Source of the DNA: Microbulbifer sp. YPW16
Lineage (GTDB): Bacteria > Pseudomonadota > Gammaproteobacteria > Pseudomonadales > Cellvibrionaceae
Assembly (NCBI RefSeq): GCF_021290385.1
Contig: NZ_CP089928.1
Location: 1,348,501 to 1,412,500 of the forward strand
Length of the DNA stretch: 64,000 bases
Direction: 5' to 3'
The notes below the pieces were generated by a model. The model had not been told where the DNA came from and did no database searches. It saw only the letters and a list, made by a program, of their open reading frames with translations. The position numbers and the translations under genes were made by a program. Below, one piece after another: positions 5,232-48,816 of this stretch; the first letter of the stretch is position 1; every line of letters begins with the position of its first letter.

Positions 5232-6629
5232 TCAGATAATCTCGAAGTAGCGCTCCAGCTCCCAGTCGCTCACATGGCGACGGTACTCCCGCTCCTCCCA
5301 CTCGCGGCTGGCGACAAAATGGTCCACGAAGCTGTTGCCGAACAATTCCCGCGCGGCGTCTGACTCCCTGAGGCGTTGAGCCGAGTCCCACAGGGTGAGC
5401 GGCAGGGCCAGTTCCTCCGGCTGCTCCAGCGCGTAGGCATTGCCGGCTACCGGCTCGCCGGGCTCCCAACCCTGCAGGATGCCGTAGAGGCCCGACCCCA
5501 GCGCTGCCGCCAGGGCCAGGTAGGGATTGGCGTCGGCCGCGCCCAGCCGGTACTCGAGCCGCTGTGATTTGTCGCTGCCGGGAATCACCCGCAGGGCCGC
5601 GGTGCGGTTCTCCACCCCCCAGGTGGCTCCGGTGGGCGCCCAGAAACCGGGCACCAGCCGCCGGTAGCTGTTGACCGTGGGAGCCATCATGGCGAGGAGT
5701 TCGGGCATCAGGCGCTGCTGGCCGGCGAGGAAATGCCGCTGTACGGCACTCATGTTCTGTGGCTGCTGCGGGTCGAAGAAGGCCGACTTGCCCGAGTCGC
5801 AATCGCGCAGGGACAGGTGTATATGGCCGCTCTGGCCCGGGTAGTCGCCGGACCATTTGGCCATAAACGTCGCCATCAGCCCGTTGCGCTGGGCCAGCAC
5901 CTTGAGGAAGGTCTTGAACAGGGCAGCCTTGTCACCGGCAGCCTCGGCGCCGTCCACGGTGATCGCCGCCTCCAGCACGCCCGGCCCGGTTTCCGTATGC
6001 AGCCCCTCGATGGGGAAGTCCATCCGCTCGCCCAGCTCCAGGATCTGGCGATGCAGTTCCGAGTGGACCGAGTTGCGGATGACCGAGTAACCAAACCAGT
6101 CCGGGGTAAAGGGTTTGAGGTTGCGGAAACCTTTTTCCCGCGCGGAATCCGGCGTCTCGTCAAACAGGAAGAATTCGTACTCCAGTGCGCCCATGGGCTC
6201 GAAACCCGCCTCACGGCAGCGTTGCACCACCCGGCGCAGGGTGCCGCGGGGACAGACCTCCTCTGCCTGGCGGTCAAACTCCGCCAGGAACAGCAACATG
6301 CCATCCTCGAAGGGAATCTCACGACAGCTTTCCGGGAGAACCCGCACCGGGGCATCGGGATAGCCCGTGTGCCAGCCGGTGTAGCTGGCATTGTCGTAGA
6401 GCTGGTCCTTGACGTCCCAACCCAGTATCACGTCGCAGAAAGCGAAGCCGTGCTCCAGGGCGGAGAAGAATTTGTCGCGGCTCATGTACTTGCCGCGCAT
6501 CACGCCGTCGTTGTCAAACAGCCCCACCTTGACGTGGGTCAGCTGGCGTTCTTCGACAATCTGCCGGGCCTGGGCGGCAGTCCGTACCTCTCGCGGCAAT
6601 AATCCGGGGGGCTGGCTCGGATCGAGCAT
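5232..6629 (-). CDS. Glutamine synthetase-family gamma-glutamyl-amine ligase
   Basis: This 465-residue protein has the glutamine synthetase fold: a beta-grasp N-terminus (KVGLFDNDGVMRGKYMS) and the catalytic core with SGHIHLSLRD and PGSDKSQRLEYRLGAADANP. Its length and the N-terminal 'D-x-x-G-x-x-R-G-K' style fit the PuuA/IpuC/GlnA4 branch, which ligates glutamate to polyamines or amino alcohols, better than housekeeping GlnA. It heads a leftward three-gene unit with an aldehyde dehydrogenase and an iron alcohol dehydrogenase, the enzyme set expected for catabolism of a gamma-glutamylated amino alcohol or amine. The specific substrate is not visible in the sequence. Confidence 0.88.
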   Translation of the reverse strand: MLDPSQPPGLLPREVRTAAQARQIVEERQLTHVKVGLFDNDGVMRGKYMSRDKFFSALEHGFAFCDVILGWDVKDQLYDNASYTGWHTGYPDAPVRVLPESCREIPFEDGMLLFLAEFDRQAEEVCPRGTLRRVVQRCREAGFEPMGALEYEFFLFDETPDSAREKGFRNLKPFTPDWFGYSVIRNSVHSELHRQILELGERMDFPIEGLHTETGPGVLEAAITVDGAEAAGDKAALFKTFLKVLAQRNGLMATFMAKWSGDYPGQSGHIHLSLRDCDSGKSAFFDPQQPQNMSAVQRHFLAGQQRLMPELLAMMAPTVNSYRRLVPGFWAPTGATWGVENRTAALRVIPGSDKSQRLEYRLGAADANPYLALAAALGSGLYGILQGWEPGEPVAGNAYALEQPEELALPLTLWDSAQRLRESDAARELFGNSFVDHFVASREWEEREYRRHVSDWELERYFEII

Positions 6630-14352: not shown

Positions 14353-15249
14353 ATGATGACCTCGGCACGCTATATCGGTCGTTTCGCGCCCTCGCCCACA
14401 GGCCCGTTGCATCTCGGCTCACTGGTTTCCGCCGTGGGGAGCTACCTGGATGCCATCGCCCATGGCGGCCAGTGGCTGGTGCGGATGGAGGACCTGGACC
14501 CGCCCCGCGAGGAACCGGGCGCGGCCGACCGTATACTGAAGTCCCTCGACGCCCACGGCCTGCACTGGCACGGCCCCCTGTGCCGGCAGAGCCAGCGCCA
14601 TAAGCGCTACGACGAACGGCTCGCAGAGCTGGCCGGGCGCGAACTGACTTATGCCTGCCACTGCTCCCGTGCCCAGATTCGTCGCCGCGGCGGCCACGAC
14701 AACGACGGCTGCCGCGCCACCCGCGAGGAACAGGGACCCAGCGCGGTGCGCCTGAAGTGCGCGGGCGGAGAGGAACACTTCGACGACATCTGGCACGGCG
14801 CGCAGCACCAGGCGATCGCCGAAGACACCATCCTGCGCCGCCGCGACGGTCTCTATGCCTACCAGCTGGCGGTGGTGGCGGACGATATCGACCAGGGCAT
14901 CACGCATATCGTACGCGGCGCAGACCTGCTGGAGACCAGTGGTGCGCAACAACGACTGTTCCGGCTTTTTGGTGCGGCAGTACCGCAATTCGGGCACCTG
15001 CCCCTGGTGATGAACCCCGGCGGACAGAAACTCAGCAAGCAGAACCAGGCACCGGCACTGGACGACCGGCAGCCATCCGCCAACCTGGTGCAGGCGCTCG
15101 GGTTTCTCGGTTTCCATGTCCCCCCGGGCCTGGAGGCTGAGACACCAGAGGCTATCCTGCACTGGGCCACTGCCCGCTGGCAGCGACACCAGGTGGACCG
15201 GCGCAACCGGGAACCGGCGCAGATTGCACAGACGGGCACCGGCCATTAA
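14353..15249 (+). CDS. gluQ: Glutamyl-Q tRNA(Asp) synthetase
   Basis: GluQ-RS is a truncated glutamyl-tRNA synthetase that glutamylates queuosine at the anticodon wobble base of tRNA-Asp. The 298-residue protein keeps the catalytic domain (GRFAPSPTGPLHLGSLVSA with the HIGH-equivalent HLGS; KLSKQ as the KMSKS equivalent) and lacks the anticodon-binding domain. Zinc-ligand candidates appear in YACHCSRAQI. The gene lies between dksA and the cbr block, as in Pseudomonas. Confidence 0.95.
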   Translation: MMTSARYIGRFAPSPTGPLHLGSLVSAVGSYLDAIAHGGQWLVRMEDLDPPREEPGAADRILKSLDAHGLHWHGPLCRQSQRHKRYDERLAELAGRELTYACHCSRAQIRRRGGHDNDGCRATREEQGPSAVRLKCAGGEEHFDDIWHGAQHQAIAEDTILRRRDGLYAYQLAVVADDIDQGITHIVRGADLLETSGAQQRLFRLFGAAVPQFGHLPLVMNPGGQKLSKQNQAPALDDRQPSANLVQALGFLGFHVPPGLEAETPEAILHWATARWQRHQVDRRNREPAQIAQTGTGH

Positions 15250-15296: not shown

Positions 15297-15473
15297 ATGA
15301 GTAATCGCACACTGCTAATCCTGCTGGTACTGGTGGGCTATGTCTTCTCCCCCACCGTGTTTACCTGGATGATCAATCCGTCCGGGGCCTGGTATCGCCC
15401 GTTTATCCTCTGGTTTGTGCTGATCCTGCTGGCACTCTTCATCCAGCTCAGGCGCGGCTCCAATGACATTTGA
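15297..15473 (+). CDS. Small CbrX-like membrane protein, coupled to cbrA
   Basis: This is a 58-residue protein with two hydrophobic helices (about 5-22 and 35-50), a tryptophan/tyrosine-rich loop between them (FTWMINPSGAWYRPF), and a basic end (QLRRGS). Its stop codon lies inside cbrA: the cbrA ATG (15463) is 11 bases before this gene's end, so ribosomes finishing here can restart on cbrA. In Pseudomonas putida a small gene, cbrX, occupies this exact place and is translationally coupled to cbrA. The identity is by position, size and overlap; I cannot confirm sequence homology. Confidence 0.78.
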   Translation: MSNRTLLILLVLVGYVFSPTVFTWMINPSGAWYRPFILWFVLILLALFIQLRRGSNDI

Positions 15474-18423
15474 TATTGTCCATATCGCACTGATCGGCGT
15501 GGCGTATATCGCCATGCTGTTTTTTGTCGCCTTCGCCACCTCCAAGGGCTGGATGCCGACCCGATGGGTGCGCCGGCCACTGGTTTATGTCCTTTCACTG
15601 GGTGTATCACTCAGCGCCTGGACCTTCTACGGTGTAGTGGACCTGGCCTGGCAGCACGGCTATGGGGTTCTTGCCTACTACCTGGGTACCGGCGCCATGT
15701 TCCTGTTTGCGCCCGTGGCGCTGGAACCCCTGTCAAGACTGGCGCAGCGCTACCAGCTCACCTCGCCCGCGGACCTGCTGGTATTCCGCTACCACAGCCG
15801 CGGTGCCGGCACCCTGGCCACGCTGTTTATGTTGCTGGGCCTGCTGCCGCTGATTGCCCTGCAGATCCAGGCGGTGGCCGAGACCCTGGCCCTGCTCTCC
15901 AGCGACAGCGTCGCCGCGCTGGCACTGCCGGGGGCCGGTATCAGCGCCAAGAACCTGATCGCCTTCTTCTACTGTGTGCTGCTGGCGGTCTTTACCGCCC
16001 TGTATGGCGCCAACCGCGAACGGCGCACTGGCCTGGTGGCGGCGATGGCGGTGGAATCCAGCGTCAAGCTGGTGGCGCTGCTGGCAGTGGGCCTGTATGC
16101 GGTATTCGGCGTGTTCGGCGGTATGGGCGGGCTCGACCAGTGGCTGGCGGACAACAGCGACATGCAGCAGCTCCTGTACAGCCCAATCGAGCAGGGTTCC
16201 TCCCACACCCTGCTGCTGGTATTTATCGCCACCGCGGTGGCCATGCCCCATATCTTTTACCTGAGCATCGCCGAGCGCTCCGCAGAGAAAACCCTGCGCA
16301 TCGCCAGCTGGGCATTCCCGCTGTTCCTGCTGCTGATGGCACTGCCGATCTTCCCCATCATGTGGGCCGGCTTCGCGCTGGATGTGACCGAGCCAGTGCA
16401 GTACTTCGCCCTTGCCGTGCCTCGAGCGAGCGGTTCGGCGTTGCTGACGGTGGCCGCGTTCGTGGGCGGACTCTCGGCTGCCACCGGTGCCCTGATCATG
16501 ATCACCCTGGCCCTGTCCACCATGGTGATGAACCACTGGCTCCTGCCCGGGACCCGCTGGCACTCCGAAGACAATATGTACCGCCAGCTGGTATGGCTGC
16601 GCCGGGCGATCGTAGGCGCACTGTTCCTGGCCGGCTTTGCGTTCTACCTGTTGCTGAACAACCGGCTCTCCCTTTCCGACCTGGCCCTGATGGCGTTTAT
16701 CGCCTCACTACAATTCCTGCCCGGGATCTTCGCTGTCATTCACTGGCCGCGAGGCAATCGCCGCGGGTTTATCGCGGGTTTGCTGGCGGGCATGCTGGTT
16801 TGGGGAGGCGGGCTCCTGCTGCCATCCATCTTCGCGATCGACGGCTTCACCCTGCCGGGTACCGACCTGCAGCTGCCTCTGGGCATGGCCATCTGGACCC
16901 AGGTCACCACCCTGTCGCTGGCAGTGAATGTGCTGCTGTTCGTGGGGCTCTCACTACTCACCCCGACCAGTAACATGGAGCAGTATGCCGCCGACCTCTG
17001 CAGCGACGACACCCTGAGCCAGGCCCTGCGGCTGGAGCTGGACGTGCAGTCCGCCGCCGATTTCCGCCTGCGGCTGGCGGAGAGCCTGGGCGCCGCCACC
17101 GCCAATCACGAGGTCAAAAAAGCCCTGCGACAGTTGCGGTTACCGGCAGACGAACGCCGCCCCTACGCCCTGCGCCAGCTCCGCAACAAGGTCGAGGCCA
17201 ACCTGTCGGGCCTGCTGGGGCGTGTGCTCGCGGGCCAGATCATCGATCGCCACATCCCGTTCAAGAACAGCGACCAGCCCGCCAACCGGGATATTCACCT
17301 GATCGAGTCGCGCCTGGGCCGCTACAAGAACCAGCTCACCGGCCTGGCCGCGGAACTCAACAACCTGCGCCTGTACCACAGGCAGATGCTGGAGGAGCTG
17401 CCCCTGGCCGCCTGCTCACTGGGAAGTGACGGCGAGGTCCTGCTATGGAACTATGCCATGCAGGACGTCACCGGCATCGCCGCCGGCGATGTCCTGGGCG
17501 CCAAGCTGGATTACCTGCCCGAGCCCTGGCACAGCCTGCTGCGCGACTTCGCTGCATCGGACGAGGGCAGCCGCTTCAAGCAACAAGTGGACATCGACGG
17601 CCACAGCCACTGGCTGAACCTGCACAAGACCCGCCTCAGGAGCAGTGCCAGCCCCCGCGGGCGCCGGGAGCCCAGTGATGCCCAGATGCTGCTGGTGGAG
17701 GACATCACTGAAACCCAGGTGCTGGAGCAGGAGCTGATCCACAGCGAGCGACTGGCTTCGGTCGGCCGCCTGGCCGCTGGGGTCGCCCATGAGGTGGGCA
17801 ACCCGGTCACCGGGATCGCCTGCCTGGCCCAGAACCTGCAGTTTGAGTCGGACAGCAACGAGGTGCGGGATACTGCCGACCAGATCCTCAGCCAGACCCA
17901 GCGTATCAGCCGCATCGTCCAATCCCTGGTCAACTTCTCCCACAGCGGCAAGCAGGAGAGCGAGCGCGCCCCGGTAGATCTCTACGCCACCGTTCAGGAA
18001 GCGGTGCAATTACTTTCCCTGCAGCGCGACAAGACCCAGGTGACCTTCACCAACACGGTTCCGGAGGACCTGGTGGCACCGGGCGACAACCAGCGCCTGA
18101 TCCAGGTCTTTATCAACCTGCTCAGCAATGCCCGCGACGCAAGCCCCGATGGCGGCAATGTGCACATCCACGGCTACATCGAGGGTGGTTACGCCTGCGT
18201 TTCGGTCACCGACGAGGGGCCGGGCATTTCCCCACGCCACCGCGAGCGCATCCTGGAGCCTTTTTTCACCACCAAGGAGCCCGGCGAGGGAACGGGGCTG
18301 GGCCTGGCAATGGTCTACAGCATCGTGGAGGAGCATGAGGGGCAACTGGAACTGGTCAGCCCTGCCGACCAGGAATCCGGCCGCGGAGCAAAGTTCATAG
18401 TCCAGTTACCCCTGGCAAGATAA
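15463..18423 (+). CDS. cbrA: CbrA: transporter-linked sensor histidine kinase
   Basis: CbrA is the sensor of the CbrA-CbrB system that sets carbon/nitrogen balance. The 986-residue protein opens with a sodium:solute-symporter-like domain of about a dozen membrane helices (residues 1 to about 500). A soluble linker with a PAS-like segment follows ([20 protein letters not shown] onwards, about 640-750). Next is a HisKA domain with phospho-accepting H776 in VAHEVGNP, then an HATPase ([30 protein letters not shown]). Position between gluQ and the sigma-54 regulator matches Pseudomonas cbrA. The signal sensed is not known from sequence; histidine transport has been reported for the Pseudomonas domain. 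Confidence 0.93.
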
Positions 18424-18553: not shown

Positions 18554-19945
18554 ATGAGCCACATCCTGATCGTCGAAGACGAAGCCATCATCCGTACCGC
18601 ACTGCGCAAGTTGCTGGAGCGGCACAAATACCGGGTGAGCGAAGCGGGCTCCGTGCGCGAGGCGACCAGCAAGTACCATCTCGGCGAAGTTGACCTGATC
18701 ATCTCCGACCTGCGCCTGCCCGGCGCCCCCGGCACTGACCTGCTCAAGCTTGCGGGCGACGTTCCGGTACTGATCATGACCAGCTATGCCAGCCTGCGCT
18801 CGGCCGTAGACTCCATGCGTATGGGGGCCGCAGACTATATCGCCAAGCCCTTCGATCACGATGAGATGATCGCCACCGTGCGCCGGGTCATCGGCAAGGC
18901 GGAGCAGAGCCGTGCCGCCAGTAACAACCAGCAGGCCCCCAGCCGCACTATTGCCGGCATGATCGGCAACAGCCCGGTGATGCGCGAGCTCTATGCCCGC
19001 ATCCACAAGGTAGCGCCCACTGACGCCACGGTGCTGGTCCACGGCGAGACCGGTACCGGCAAGGAGTTGGTTGCCCGCGCCATCCACGAGGAAAGCCGCC
19101 GGGCTGACAAACCCCTGATCTCGGTCAACTGTGCCGCGATCCCCGACACGCTGATCGAAGCGGAACTGTTCGGTCACGAGAAAGGCGCATTTACCGGCGC
19201 CCAGACCGCACGCGAGGGCCTGGTGGCCGCCGCTGACGGCGGCACCCTGTTCCTGGACGAGATTGGTGAGCTGCCGCTGGAAGCCCAGGCACGGCTGCTG
19301 CGTGTGTTACAGGAGGGCGAGGTACGGCCAATTGGTGCCATCGAGTCACGTAAAGTGGATGTACGCCTGGTGGCAGCAACCCACCGCAACCTGCGCCAGC
19401 TTGCCACCGAACGCAAGTTTCGCGAGGACCTCTACTACCGCATCAATGTGGTACAGATGAGCCTGGCGCCCCTGCGGGAGCGCGGCAAGGACGTACTGGC
19501 CATCGCAGAGCACCTGCTACAGAAGTTTTGCACCAAGGTGGGGCGAGCAATCCTGAAGCTCTCCCCGGAAGCGGTACAGGCGGTAACGACCTACACCTGG
19601 CCGGGTAACGTGCGGGAACTGGAGAATGCGATCCAGCGTGCCGTAATCCTGACCGAGGACAACAGCACCGAAATCGATCACAAGACGCTGGATATCGACC
19701 TGGACCTGGTACCGGTGGAAGAGGCCGATCCGGAGCGCCGCCCCCGCAGCCTGCACTCCGATCCCCGCGAGGACCTGTCCCTGGAAGACTACTTTGCCCG
19801 CTTCGTGCTCGAGCACCAGGACACCATGAGCGAGACGGAACTGGCCAAGAAGCTGGGCGTCAGCCGCAAGTGCCTGTGGGAACGCCGACAGAAGCTGGGG
19901 ATCCCGCGCAAGAAGAGCCGCCGCGCAGCCGCAGAGGCCTCCTGA
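18554..19945 (+). CDS. cbrB: CbrB: NtrC-family sigma-54 response regulator
   Basis: This 463-residue activator has a receiver domain with phosphorylatable D52 ([10 protein letters not shown]). The AAA+ domain has Walker A GETGTGKE at 164-171, the sigma-54 contact loop GAFTGA at 211-216, and [10 protein letters not shown] Fis-type helix-turn-helix lies at the C-terminus ([20 protein letters not shown]). It is 130 bases after cbrA. The main known CbrB target in Pseudomonas is crcZ, encoded immediately downstream; a matching operator and -24/-12 promoter are present here. Confidence 0.94.
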
Positions 19946-20097
19946 CCACCTCCCGATCCCCCCTTTCCGGGCTGCTCCTGCGGCCCTTTCTCCTCGCAGC
20001 CGCGCCAGAAACCTGACCTTCCTGACTTTTCATCCATGGTGCGGCTGGCCGGATGATTACCGTACGGCCAGAAAGTTCCCACCTGGAGCACTCAAAG

Positions 20098-20125
20098 TGT
20101 TACCCCGGTCTCACCGTCCGTAACA
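20098..20125. promoter_or_regulatory. CbrB-type upstream activator site
   Basis: TGTTAC (20098-20103) and GTAACA (20120-20125) form a perfect inverted pair with a 16-base spacer. Pseudomonas CbrB sites are described as TGTTAC-N(about 14-16)-GTAACA. The centre is about 112 bases upstream of the -24 element, a normal enhancer distance. A further GTAACG half-site lies at 20141-20146. Confidence 0.75.
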
Positions 20126-20189
20126 ACTGCGGCGACTTACGTAACGCCGGGCCCGGGCTTTGTGGCACAAAATTTTACCCCAAAAACCA

Positions 20190-20202
20190 TAAGTCATTGA
20201 TT
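20190..20202 (-). promoter_or_regulatory. IHF binding site
   Basis: On the minus strand this is AATCAATGACTTA, an exact match to WATCAA-N4-TTR. It lies between the activator site and the -24/-12 promoter, where IHF bends DNA for sigma-54 activators. Confidence 0.65.
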
Positions 20203-20220
20203 TTAAAGGACTTTAAAAAG

Positions 20221-20237
20221 TTGGCACGCTAAATGCT
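20221..20237 (+). promoter_or_regulatory. Sigma-54 (-24/-12) promoter of the CrcZ-like RNA
   Basis: TTGGCACGCTAAATGCT matches YTGGCACG-N4-TTGCW with one mismatch. The invariant GG (20223-20224) and GC (20235-20236) are exactly 12 bases apart. Predicted transcription start is near 20248. Confidence 0.85.
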
Positions 20238-20247
20238 TTCTTACTAG

Positions 20248-20620
20248 TACAACAATGAAGAACAGCCAAGAATAAAAATAAATGACTGTTTAAGCCCTAA
20301 GAACAACTGACAATAAGTGGGCGCAACACAATAAGAATAAAGGGGCGGTCGACAATAAAAGCAAACAGTGACCAAAACCTGAACAACAATAACAACAAAC
20401 AATAACAATAAAGAATAAAAATAAAGAAAGCAGAACAAAAATAACCACAAGCGCGTTACAAACTGACTGATTGTACCTGGGAGAGGGTGTTTGCTAGACA
20501 GCAAATTGATAGCGCAAGGATGCCGCTGCCTTCATAGCCATAACAATAACTCCCTTTACTCCTTTCTCTTTGGAATGGAGAGTCTGTAAGGGGGCGGTTG
20601 CTGCCAGCACCGCCACCATC
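20248..20620 (+). ncRNA. crcZ: CrcZ-like Hfq-binding small RNA (3' end approximate)
   Basis: Between cbrB and pcnB, where Pseudomonas encodes CrcZ, lies a non-coding stretch transcribed from a CbrB/sigma-54-type promoter. It is packed with AAN-triplet motifs (AANAANAA) of the kind bound by the distal face of Hfq with Crc. Separate clusters are at 20271-20278, 20330-20340, a long run at 20382-20429, 20434-20441 and 20542-20549. CrcZ sequesters Hfq/Crc and so relieves carbon catabolite repression. A TTTGCT-agac-AGCAAA hairpin is at 20490-20505 and a GGCGGT...ACCGCC hairpin at 20593-20614, without a clear U-tract. The end is therefore a guess, giving about 370 nt against about 400 in P. aeruginosa. 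No coding frame fits. Confidence 0.8.
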
Positions 20621-20676
20621 CTATCCCCCCCTGAGCTTTCCCCCTGTTCAAGCAAGCGCCGGGCCGTCCATGGCTG

Positions 20677-20685
20677 TGGTAGAAT
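20677..20685 (+). promoter_or_regulatory. Candidate extended -10 promoter for pcnB
   Basis: TGGTAGAAT provides an extended -10 (TAGAAT at 20680-20685) followed by a GC-rich discriminator, about 57 bases before the pcnB start. No convincing -35 is seen. Confidence 0.4.
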
Positions 20686-20748
20686 TCGCGCGTCAATCCA
20701 GACGGGATCTATCGCCACACGTTGGCAGCAGTCAAGACAGACAGCCGT

Positions 20749-22104
20749 ATGCTCAATTCCCTGATCAGCAGTATCAAGCGCTGGCGCAAGCCGGCCAGTA
20801 ACAACACCCTGCGTGTTATCCCGCGCAGCGACCACAACCTGTCCCGGCGCGATATCAGCCGCGCGGCGCTGACCGTCCTGAAGCGCCTCCAGGAGGCGGG
20901 CTTCGAGGCCTACATTGTCGGGGGCGGCGTACGCGACCTGCTGCTGGGCGGTCACCCCAAGGACTTCGATGTCGCCACCGATGCGACACCGGAGGAGGCG
21001 AAGAAACTCTTCCGTGGCGCGCGTATTGTCGGCCGGCGCTTCCGCATCCTGCATGCCCGCATCGGACGGGAAATTATCGAGGTCACCACTTTCCGGGGGC
21101 ACCACAGCGAGGGCGAGGACCACGAGGCACAGCAGTCCGAGCATGGCATGCTGCTGCGGGACAACGTCTATGGTGACCTGAAGAGTGATGCCGTAAGGCG
21201 TGACTTTACGGTCAACGCCCTCTACTACACCACCAATGGTTTCGAAATCCACGACTACACCGGTGGTGTGAAGGATATCGAGGACCGCCTGATCCGGATG
21301 ATCGGCGACCCGGAGACACGCTATAAGGAAGATCCGGTACGGATGCTGCGAGCTGTTCGCTTCGCCGCCAAGCTGGATTTCCAGATCGAACCGGATACGG
21401 CCGCCCCGTTGCGGGAGCTGGCCCCCCTGCTGCGCAATATCGCGCCTGCACGGCTGTTCGACGAAGTACTCAAGCTGCTGATGAGCGGTCACGGCGAGCG
21501 TACCTTTGAGCTGATGCGGGAGCACGGCCTGTGGCAACACCTGTTCCCTGAAAACGATGCCCTGCTCGGCGACGCGACAGCCCTGGAACTGACCCGGATT
21601 GCCTTGCGCAACACCGACGACCGAATCCGCGCCGACAAGCGCGTCACCCCCGCTTTCCTCTATGCCGCCCTGCTCTGGCCTGCGGTCAACCGCGAGCAGC
21701 AGCGACTGACAGGCAAGGGAACTCCGCCGGTACCGGCCCTGGCGGGTGCGGCGCAAAAGGTGATTGGCGCCCAGCTGGCGCACACGGCCATTCCCAAGCG
21801 CTTCTCCCTACCCATGCGCGAGATCTGGGAGATGCAATCGCGCCTGCCCCGCCGCAACGGCTCGCGGGCACAGCGACTCAGCGAGCACCCGCGTTTCCGC
21901 GCCGCCTACGATTTCCTGCTGTTGCGCGAGGAGTGCGGTGAGATAGCACCGGGACTTGGCCAGTGGTGGACCGATTTCCAGCAGGCCGATGCGGATAGCC
22001 GCGAGCAAATGGTCAGCAAATTGCCGCGTTCCGGTGACGGCCGGCGCAGGAGTCGCGGCGGTCGTCGCCGGAAGCCCCGCTCTTCCGCGCCACGCCAGGA
22101 CTGA
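20749..22104 (+). CDS. pcnB: Poly(A) polymerase I
   Basis: PcnB adds 3' poly(A) tails that promote RNA decay. The 451-residue protein has the class II nucleotidyltransferase head: GGGVRDLLLGGHPKDFDVATDA with catalytic aspartates, then RGHHSEGED and the RRDFTVNALYY motif. A C-terminal arm ends in a basic tail (RRRSRGGRRRKPR) expected for RNA binding. The ATG at 20749 matches where homology starts; a TTG at 20722 in the same frame is an alternative. It is followed after 5 bases by folK. Confidence 0.95.
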   Translation: MLNSLISSIKRWRKPASNNTLRVIPRSDHNLSRRDISRAALTVLKRLQEAGFEAYIVGGGVRDLLLGGHPKDFDVATDATPEEAKKLFRGARIVGRRFRILHARIGREIIEVTTFRGHHSEGEDHEAQQSEHGMLLRDNVYGDLKSDAVRRDFTVNALYYTTNGFEIHDYTGGVKDIEDRLIRMIGDPETRYKEDPVRMLRAVRFAAKLDFQIEPDTAAPLRELAPLLRNIAPARLFDEVLKLLMSGHGERTFELMREHGLWQHLFPENDALLGDATALELTRIALRNTDDRIRADKRVTPAFLYAALLWPAVNREQQRLTGKGTPPVPALAGAAQKVIGAQLAHTAIPKRFSLPMREIWEMQSRLPRRNGSRAQRLSEHPRFRAAYDFLLLREECGEIAPGLGQWWTDFQQADADSREQMVSKLPRSGDGRRRSRGGRRRKPRSSAPRQD

Positions 22105-47713: not shown

Positions 47714-48687
47714 CCCCCCAGCATTGCCAGGTTGCGGGTGGCGCCGGTCAGTCCGCGCTGCAGCTCGTGACCCGCGCTCTTGCCGCCAATCAGTTCACGG
47801 ATATGGTCGGCCAGGGCCTCCGCATCGCCGGCGGCGATCTCCCGGCGCAGGTCGAAGCCCGCGTCGGCGAACAGGCACAGGTGCAGCTTGCCCTGCGCAG
47901 ACATGCGCAGCCGGTTGCAGCTCGCGCAGAAATCACTGCTATAGGGGGTGATCAGGCCGACACGGCCGGCGTAATCCGGGTGGTAATACTCCCGGGCCGG
48001 ACCCGCATCCCGAGCGCGCACCACCTGCTGCCAACCGTCCTGTACAAGTCGGGACTCAATATCTGTGCCAGAGACATGGTTGCTGGCAAAGAACTCACGG
48101 TTGTCGCCGGTGCGCATCAGTTCGATAAAGCGCAGGGTCACCGGCATCTGCCGGACCCAGTCCAGGAACTGGTCGAAACCGGCGAGGTTGTGCTGACGCA
48201 GGAGGACGGCATTGACCTTGGTCTGGATACCCAGCTCCAGGGCGCGGTCGATCCCGGCCAGGGCCTTCTCGAGGCGGTCGTGACCGGTAATCCGCTGGAA
48301 TTGCGCGGGATCCAGGCTGTCCACGCTCACGTTCAACTGGTCGAGCCCGGCCGCATGCCAACCGTCTATCTGGGATGGCAGGCGATAGCCATTGGTGGTG
48401 ATTGCCACGCGACGGATGCCATCGCAGTCATGCACTGCCGCAATGAGTGAGTCGAGGTCGCGGCGCAGGGAGGGCTCGCCGCCGGTGAGGCGCACCTTTT
48501 CGGTACCGAGCGAGGCAAAGGCGCGGACGACGGTGTCAACTTCCGCCACGGAGAGGGGGTTTTCACCCTCGAGCGATCGCCCACAGCCAATCCCGTCGGG
48601 CAGGCAGTAATTGCAGCGGAAGTTGCAGATGTCGGTCACGGACAGGCGCAGGTAATAAAACCGGCGGCCATAGCTATCTTGTAACAT
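47710..48687 (-). CDS. moaA: GTP 3',8-cyclase, radical SAM
   Basis: MoaA rearranges GTP to the pterin precursor, the first committed step. The 325-residue protein has the radical-SAM cluster CNFRCNYC near residues 21-28, RLTGGEP, and the second cluster CASCNRLRMSAQGKLHLCLF near the C-terminus. It ends in Gly-Gly. I chose the ATG at 48687 because GGAAAGG precedes it; an upstream extension lies in the structured leader. It heads the moa-mod-moeB operon. Confidence 0.96.
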   Translation of the reverse strand: MLQDSYGRRFYYLRLSVTDICNFRCNYCLPDGIGCGRSLEGENPLSVAEVDTVVRAFASLGTEKVRLTGGEPSLRRDLDSLIAAVHDCDGIRRVAITTNGYRLPSQIDGWHAAGLDQLNVSVDSLDPAQFQRITGHDRLEKALAGIDRALELGIQTKVNAVLLRQHNLAGFDQFLDWVRQMPVTLRFIELMRTGDNREFFASNHVSGTDIESRLVQDGWQQVVRARDAGPAREYYHPDYAGRVGLITPYSSDFCASCNRLRMSAQGKLHLCLFADAGFDLRREIAAGDAEALADHIRELIGGKSAGHELQRGLTGATRNLAMLGG

Positions 48688-48688
48688 T

Positions 48689-48805
48689 AAACGCCTTTCC
48701 AAAGTCGGGAGGCCACCCGGTTTCCCGTGTGACCCTGGTGGCCTTTCCGGCCACGGTCCCGGCACCTTGCGGCTGAGGCCGTGTAGGCAGCGGGACTCGG
48801 TGTTT
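48689..48805 (-). promoter_or_regulatory. Structured moaA leader, candidate Moco riboswitch
   Basis: Between the putative start and moaA the RNA can form an enclosing helix (AAAC-A-CC with GG-C-GTTT) that reaches the ribosome site GGAAAGG. Inside are GTCCCG/CGGGAC, CGGC-ctca-GCCG, GTGGCC-ggaaa-GGCCAC (a GNRA-like loop) and CGGGA...TCCCG. Known Moco riboswitches sit before moaA and use a tetraloop with its receptor. The architecture fits, but I have not matched it to the covariance model. Confidence 0.55.
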
Positions 48806-48816
48806 AAACTGTTGCC

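Follow-up and report, generated by a model that had tools for sequence, protein, structure and literature searches.

The interval between cbrB and pcnB of Microbulbifer sp. YPW16 very probably encodes the Microbulbifer orthologue of CrcZ, a sponge RNA for Hfq/Crc. The window (the whole 64,000-nucleotide stretch of DNA analysed) spans bases 1348501-1412500 of a single 4.19-Mb contig. At the level of sequence, the predicted RNA has the positional features of a CrcZ-type RNA: it lies on the same strand as its neighbours, between cbrB and pcnB, and is accompanied by the subsites, a sigma-54 promoter and multiple AAN (A-R-N type) motifs. The assignment is made because place, control region and motif agree, though the RNA falls outside the Rfam family as curated.

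Gene neighbourhood

The + strand of the window carries, in order, gluQ (14353-15249), cbrX, cbrA, cbrB, the RNA and pcnB, an order that Pseudomonas aeruginosa shares; the context cbrX-cbrA-cbrB-RNA-pcnB was also found in Pseudomonas loci. By eye, the outer flanks of this block are dksA-like and folK-like reading frames. The cbrX homologue (15297-15473, +, 58 codons) overlaps the start of cbrA by 11 nt, and its length and WYRP motif are common to the 58-codon ORFs at cbrA in the seven Pseudomonas loci examined; CbrX is described in passages of PMC6591292. ORFs with WYRP are also present at cbrA in Marinagarivorans (L075, 63 codons) and Pseudohongiella (L135, 58 codons), and under the same rule none was found in L081 or L127.

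The sensor kinase gene cbrA (15463-18423, +) encodes a hydrophobic, transporter-like N-terminal part with 13 TM-like segments (simple hydropathy rule), followed by PAS, HisKA and HATPase_c domains (Pfam), and the protein is 47-49% identical to CbrA of the seven Pseudomonas loci over almost its full length. Because Pfam gave no SSF/SLC5 domain match on CbrA, the SLC5-like character of this part rests on that identity. The NtrC-type sigma-54 activator gene cbrB (18554-19945, +; Pfam Response_reg and Sigma54_activat) encodes a protein 60-64.5% identical to its 44 long Pseudomonas/Stutzerimonas matches, with the recognition helix RKCLWERRQ nearly unchanged. Downstream of the RNA, pcnB (poly(A) polymerase I; TIGR01942, 540.7 bits) occupies approximately 20722-22104 (+, start unsure) and is preceded by its own probable promoter of the extended -10 type, TGTGGTAGAAT (20675-20685, +; by eye). 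Near pcnB, TGTGNTAGAAT is prominent in an alignment of 37 Microbulbifer loci, as judged by eye. Elsewhere in the window, a molybdenum/tungsten cofactor riboswitch was matched at 48676-48814 (-) with 89.5 bits.

Control region

Three putative CbrB half-sites, recognized by sequence, follow cbrB on the + strand: F1 (TGTTAC, 20098-20103), R1 (GTAACA, 20120-20125) and R2 (GTAACG, 20141-20146). An earlier note, made from the letters of this DNA, had pointed to TGTTAC-N16-GTAACA between cbrB and pcnB; it is present at 20098-20125, occurs once in the window and in none of 100 shuffles, and the relaxed form TGTTAC-N14-18-GTAACA is unique in the 4.19-Mb genome. A further exact enhancer palindrome was not found genome-wide. 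The first two half-sites of the note's CbrB site thus stand, and R2, at -80/-81 from the promoter TGG in 37/37 Microbulbifer loci, had been overlooked. CbrB of Pseudomonas putida uses three non-palindromic subsites F1, R1 and R2, according to parts of PMC6296734, and the predicted layout in the window is the same.

The note's exact IHF consensus was recovered on the minus strand (AATCAATGACTTA, 20190-20202), where it is weak alone: WATCAANNNNTTR has two matches in the window against 0.58 expected, and at least two in 14 of 100 shuffles. The -24/-12 promoter, too, is as described, TGGCACGCTAAATGCT at 20222-20237 (+), a GG-N10-GC site in which GG and GC are 12 bases apart; one such site in the window against 0.46 expected is weak by itself. 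Though IHF site and promoter are not significant singly, the predicted arrangement of both with the half-sites is. In two other loci, matches to the Rfam 'P36 sRNA' (L117:1266-1326 and L105:2160-2220) overlie the CbrB enhancer region just 5' of crcZ; since a hairpin there resembles, by eye, a Pseudomonas cbrB terminator, P36 at these loci may be a terminator and not an sRNA.

Conservation of the locus was assessed in 36 further Microbulbifer genomes, which together with the window gave 37 loci flanked by cbrB and pcnB. A GG-N10-GC promoter is present in 37/37 and strict TGTTAC-N14-18-GTAACA in 36/37, the exception (L058, from an 80% complete genome) having half-sites at wider spacing. The 300 nt after the promoter hold 12 to 31 matches to the AAN motif AANAANAA per locus, a count that is not independent because promoter choice favoured sites with such matches downstream. 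Both the -24/-12 site and the AAN motifs are conserved in sister genomes, where the note had proposed to compare the interval.

The predicted RNA

The CrcZ RNA is predicted at 20248-20560 (+, 313 nt, 45% A), its 5' end being placed by the -12 element. Each forward frame holds 9 stops and the longest open stretch is 34 codons, which rules out a protein-coding RNA. A putative Hfq/Crc-binding AAN tract (20268-20444, +) contains 18 overlapping AANAANAA matches, densest at 20382-20424, and the 19th match of the RNA interval lies outside the tract at 20542. The window as a whole has 38 matches against 7.65 expected, with 19/38 on the + strand within 20268-20549. The A-rich non-coding stretch with motif clusters reported in the note is thereby borne out. 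The sequence AANAANAANAANAA has 14 matches genome-wide, five of them (some overlapping) within the RNA interval. No intrinsic terminator was found in 20000-20800 by a simple scan.

The Rfam search suggested in the note returned CrcZ (RF01675) as the best Rfam match (20383-20649, 34.4 bits, E 2.6e-7), short of the gathering score of 95 bits, as expected from its remark that the sequence had diverged enough to evade simple searches. Among 18 loci tested, one of which (L127) ends 231 nt after the promoter, the gathering score was passed by 3/3 Pseudomonas/Stutzerimonas loci and 0/15 others. CsrB/RsmZ sponges are untranslated RNAs that titrate a translational repressor, and the Microbulbifer RNA is alike as a predicted titrating untranslated RNA; it differs in having only two GGA motifs in 313 nt, because of which a CsrA/RsmA sponge was ruled out.

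The 3' part of the RNA is a conserved element with a predicted branched fold (approximately 20453-20560, +; alignment A1 and consensus fold), which had escaped the earlier note. Its closing stem GGGA:TCCC joins 20479-20482 with 20551-20554, and a TTTGC:GCAAA hairpin and a second small hairpin are predicted. Within the genus it is much better conserved than the AAN tract, whose length varies. The consensus fold has 20 pairs, four with kept two-sided changes, of which two are supplied solely by the divergent L058 and the remaining two by L016 and by L005 together with L007; the fold of the window element is no better than shuffles (z 0.40 and 0.75). Model R1, built of this element, has one match in the genome among the best 150 of 939 candidates scored. 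In a run on 50 loci, both Microbulbifer loci in the set were matched; Exilibacterium gave a weak match (E 0.024) and Aestuariicella a non-significant one (E 0.26), each at the expected position, and no Pseudomonas/Stutzerimonas locus in the set was matched. We guess at a role in 3'-end formation or stabilisation. By eye, Pseudomonas shows a loosely comparable string, AACTGA...GGAGAG. A possible GTG reading frame inside the element was rejected, as by eye it is lost in part of the genus.

Hfq, RpoN and Crc

The genome encodes one Hfq with the Sm-like core (TIGR02383, 100.7 bits), for which P. aeruginosa Hfq is the best PDB match and 66 of the first 71 residues are identical to it, and one match to RpoN. 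Crc, which the note had proposed to look for, was found at genome positions 2407915-2408553 with its nuclease site broken; XthA is encoded as well. Against 4JG3 the Crc protein scores 272 bits with 113/250 aligned residues identical, and it is ExoIII-like with lost catalytic residues and kept RNA-contact arginines: 2/7 ExoIII catalytic residues are left (3/7 in P. aeruginosa Crc under the same rule), and R140, R141 and R229, whose roles are taken from PMC6422490, are retained. Contacts of Crc may differ, because several residues differ from P. aeruginosa (E142D, M156A, E193K, R196K, R230N and R233E).

In 16/21 genomes of other families, a Crc-like protein has R140-R141 but lacks part of the catalytic set, a count that includes G057, where 5/7 catalytic positions are readable and one is changed. 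The Crc relative of G056 (L049) has all seven catalytic residues and the arginines, and a candidate CrcZ is present there; G051 and G052 have only a catalytic Crc relative without the arginines, and no Crc match was found in G038 (75% complete) or G053. In G051 the sole Crc relative found has all seven ExoIII catalytic residues, and because a candidate CrcZ (L047) is present, Hfq may act there without Crc.

Occurrence beyond the genus

DNA 3' of cbrB was taken from 20 of the 21 genomes of other families. In 17/20, pcnB lies downstream on the same strand as cbrB; L040, L041 and L042 have no pcnB in the piece examined, L040 and L042 being short and at contig ends. A GG-N10-GC site is carried by 15/17 of the loci with pcnB, and 14 of these 15 have at least five AANAANAA matches in 300 nt (L035 has two). 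L039 has no GG-N10-GC promoter, yet 13 AANAANAA matches, and L045 (G052, one other family) has cbrB without a visible promoter or AAN tract.

The F1-R2-promoter pattern is matched in 106/391 genomes of the order, representing 41/137 genera, and a reversed-pattern control gave 0 matches. About 15 of 46 family labels have a match (counted by eye), that in f42 looking like chance. A sample of the class gave 4/377 matches, all within the order (the window plus three other genomes), and 0/371 outside the order; because the pattern is strict and was built from this system, failure to match is no proof that the system is lacking.

A contig scan gave at least 119 stretches, of which 80 became named loci; one gap was narrowed to reduce Pseudomonas, and the 80 are not a fair species sample. 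Among these named loci, cbrB is upstream on the same strand in 72/80, pcnB was also found downstream within the sequence examined in 64/80, and 77/80 have at least five AANAANAA matches in 300 nt (L073 has two, L141 one, and L074 is cut off). Loci without cbrB are L085, L088, L090, L094, L099, L108, L119 (with only 262 nt of upstream sequence) and L141, whose match may be chance. The Stutzerimonas/Pseudomonas cases are probably CrcY/CrcX-like copies, because L085 passes the Rfam CrcZ model. For 21/80 the title is neither Pseudomonas nor Stutzerimonas, and these include Dasania, Marinagarivorans, Marinobacter, Aestuariicella, Marinimicrobium, Marinobacterium and Pseudohongiella; L144, counted among the 21, falls with Pseudomonas in a CbrB tree. 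This tree (24 rows, with 7/21 inner branches open and four long rows) is compatible with family lines, joins Cellvibrionaceae to Microbulbiferaceae (100/99) and groups the window CbrB with Microbulbifer.

Tandem enhancer-promoter modules 326-630 bp apart occur in G104, G126, G150, G173, G271 and G326, and a second module is seen by eye in Dasania (L068); their sequence suggests tandem crcZ copies. Very short candidate CrcZ RNAs, of about 73-134 nt when measured from the predicted start through a G+C-rich hairpin (hairpins by eye), are found in L034, L035, L036, L043, L051, L068, L073, L090 and L127.

Predicted mechanism and alternative explanations

Transcription, control, binding and physiology are predicted as follows. 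When the preferred carbon source is exhausted, CbrA would activate CbrB, which would bind F1-R1-R2 about 80-124 bp 5' of the promoter. IHF would bend the DNA between the CbrB sites and the promoter, and RpoN polymerase would start an untranslated RNA near 20248. The AAN tracts of this RNA would then bind Hfq (with Crc) across its distal face, and Hfq/Crc would thereby be drawn off catabolic mRNAs that have AAYAAYAA beside their ribosome-binding sites.

A different use of the same promoter would make the A-rich stretch a long CbrB-controlled 5' leader of pcnB and no separate sponge. Such a leader would suit the window, where the simple scan found no intrinsic terminator between the stretch and pcnB, and it would also fit L033 and L100, whose promoters are near pcnB and separated from cbrB by some 2.5 kb and 1.3 kb, respectively. 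We nevertheless regard it as very improbable and reject the leader as sole function, since the conserved TGTGNTAGAAT looks like pcnB's own promoter (37 loci, by eye) and modules without cbrB or pcnB in the sequence examined, both flanks covered, exist in P. sagittaria (L094), P. linyingensis (L099) and Stutzerimonas kunmingensis (L108). A G+C-rich hairpin between tract and pcnB in several other families (by eye) also argues against the leader.

It is unlikely, if less so, that the CbrB-controlled RNA acts chiefly by base pairing through its 3' element, with the AAN tract merely loading Hfq. Short versions elsewhere keep half-sites, promoter and AAN tract without an R1 match, and the element pairs internally in the consensus fold; these observations weigh against pairing as the chief role, for which the far better preservation of the element than of the length-variable tract in the genus, and its single detection in the genome by R1 (best 150 of 939 candidates), would speak. 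Drift toward A-richness beside a promoter match arising by chance can be given almost no credence: promoter and IHF matches are each unremarkable alone, but their joint arrangement is conserved across families and absent from the reversed control and from 371 genomes of other orders, and chance A-richness was rejected on the grounds of that conservation. The Hfq/Crc sponge is accordingly the reading that we retain.

Relation to known systems

In Pseudomonas, CrcZ is known to sequester Hfq and Crc and thereby to release the use of less preferred carbon sources from repression. Pseudomonas CrcZ (RF01675), CrcY and CrcX share with the Microbulbifer RNA the place between cbrB and pcnB, the F1-R1-R2 subsites, the sigma-54 promoter, the AAN motifs and a genome that also encodes Hfq and Crc. 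Unlike Pseudomonas CrcZ, the Microbulbifer RNA has a body diverged below the Rfam gathering score and a 3' element that R1 did not detect in the Pseudomonas loci tested, and unlike the CrcZ/CrcY/CrcX set it has one enhancer copy and no terminator by simple scan. Pseudomonas CbrAB is alike in the cbrX-cbrA-cbrB order, in a CbrA with TM part, PAS and kinase, and in the CbrB recognition helix, whereas the present system lies outside Pseudomonadaceae with the CbrB (60-64.5%) and CbrA (47-49%) identities given above.

CbrAB/CrcZ is stated to be exclusive to Pseudomonadaceae in passages of PMC6296734 and PMC8871633. Against these statements the breadth of the system is new, as are cbrX outside Pseudomonadaceae and the 3' module. 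Portions of PMC5073097 report cbrAB transcripts in seawater, and PMC8312277 concerns Acinetobacter Crc and defers CbrAB to future study. The titles and abstracts listed in the literature search, which do not cover most subscription papers and bioRxiv, contain no CrcZ/CbrAB as a studied system outside Pseudomonas and Azotobacter, and no paper joining crcZ and Marinobacter was found there.

The earlier note had proposed a full CbrAB-CrcZ switch in a non-Pseudomonas lineage, and the DNA elements and the Crc, Hfq and RpoN genes agree with it; its implication of a single odd lineage is too narrow, because many families of the order carry the DNA of this system. CbrXAB-CrcZ-Hfq/Crc is likely to be an ancestral, vertically inherited catabolite repression switch of Pseudomonadales sensu lato (Cellvibrionaceae, Microbulbiferaceae, Spongiibacteraceae, Halieaceae, Pseudohongiellaceae, Marinobacteraceae and others). 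Under this reading the predicted RNA bodies would range from about 75-135 nt in some families to more than 300 nt, tandem copies would occur in certain of them, the 3' module would be specific to the Microbulbifer clade, and at least one genome would combine a candidate CrcZ with Hfq alone, lacking a degenerate Crc. If so, many marine relatives choose among carbon sources by Hfq/Crc-type catabolite repression, and the parts of the RNA that matter can be recognised by comparing families. The short natural CrcZ versions would represent Hfq sponges pared to a minimum, and the added contribution of Crc could be tested in genomes where CrcZ occurs without a degenerate Crc.

Candidate targets

Candidate targets were sought among 742 genes that a crude script called in a genome sample of 862.5 kb. 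The CA motif AAYAAYAA occurs at -40 to 0 of 16/742 genes, and the other six bins have 3, 0, 6, 4, 0 and 1. Eleven permuted motifs occur at -40 to 0 of 1 to 12 genes (mean 5.5), the top two (12 and 9 of 742) being near-shifts of the CA motif; the reverse complement of AAYAAYAA occurs there in 0 genes, and A-rich control motifs all tend to peak before starts. Part of the AAYAAYAA enrichment is leader A-richness, because the near-shift and A-rich controls rise there too, and the scan supports a CA-motif regulon without proving it. The 16 genes encode a glutamine-synthetase-like protein, a class III aminotransferase, a TonB-dependent receptor, a TonB protein, a chemotaxis receptor, M20, S41 and DUF885 proteins, an SMC protein, PntB, a short-chain dehydrogenase, a Kelch protein and four proteins without a Pfam hit.

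The glutamine-synthetase-like gene lies in the window (5232-6629, -) and has GATAACAACAA just 5' of its ribosome-binding site. Of its 36 listed matches in the genus, 30 were examined: 16 have AAYAAYAA near the start (in two of the 16, the motif is 19 nt ahead of a start situated 5' of the match), and the remaining 14 have mostly CACAATAA- or CAGAATAA-type letters before the upstream start, L267 and L268 being without such letters and L271 having no start found. Aldehyde and alcohol dehydrogenase genes follow the glutamine-synthetase-like gene, and the group perhaps serves amine catabolism.
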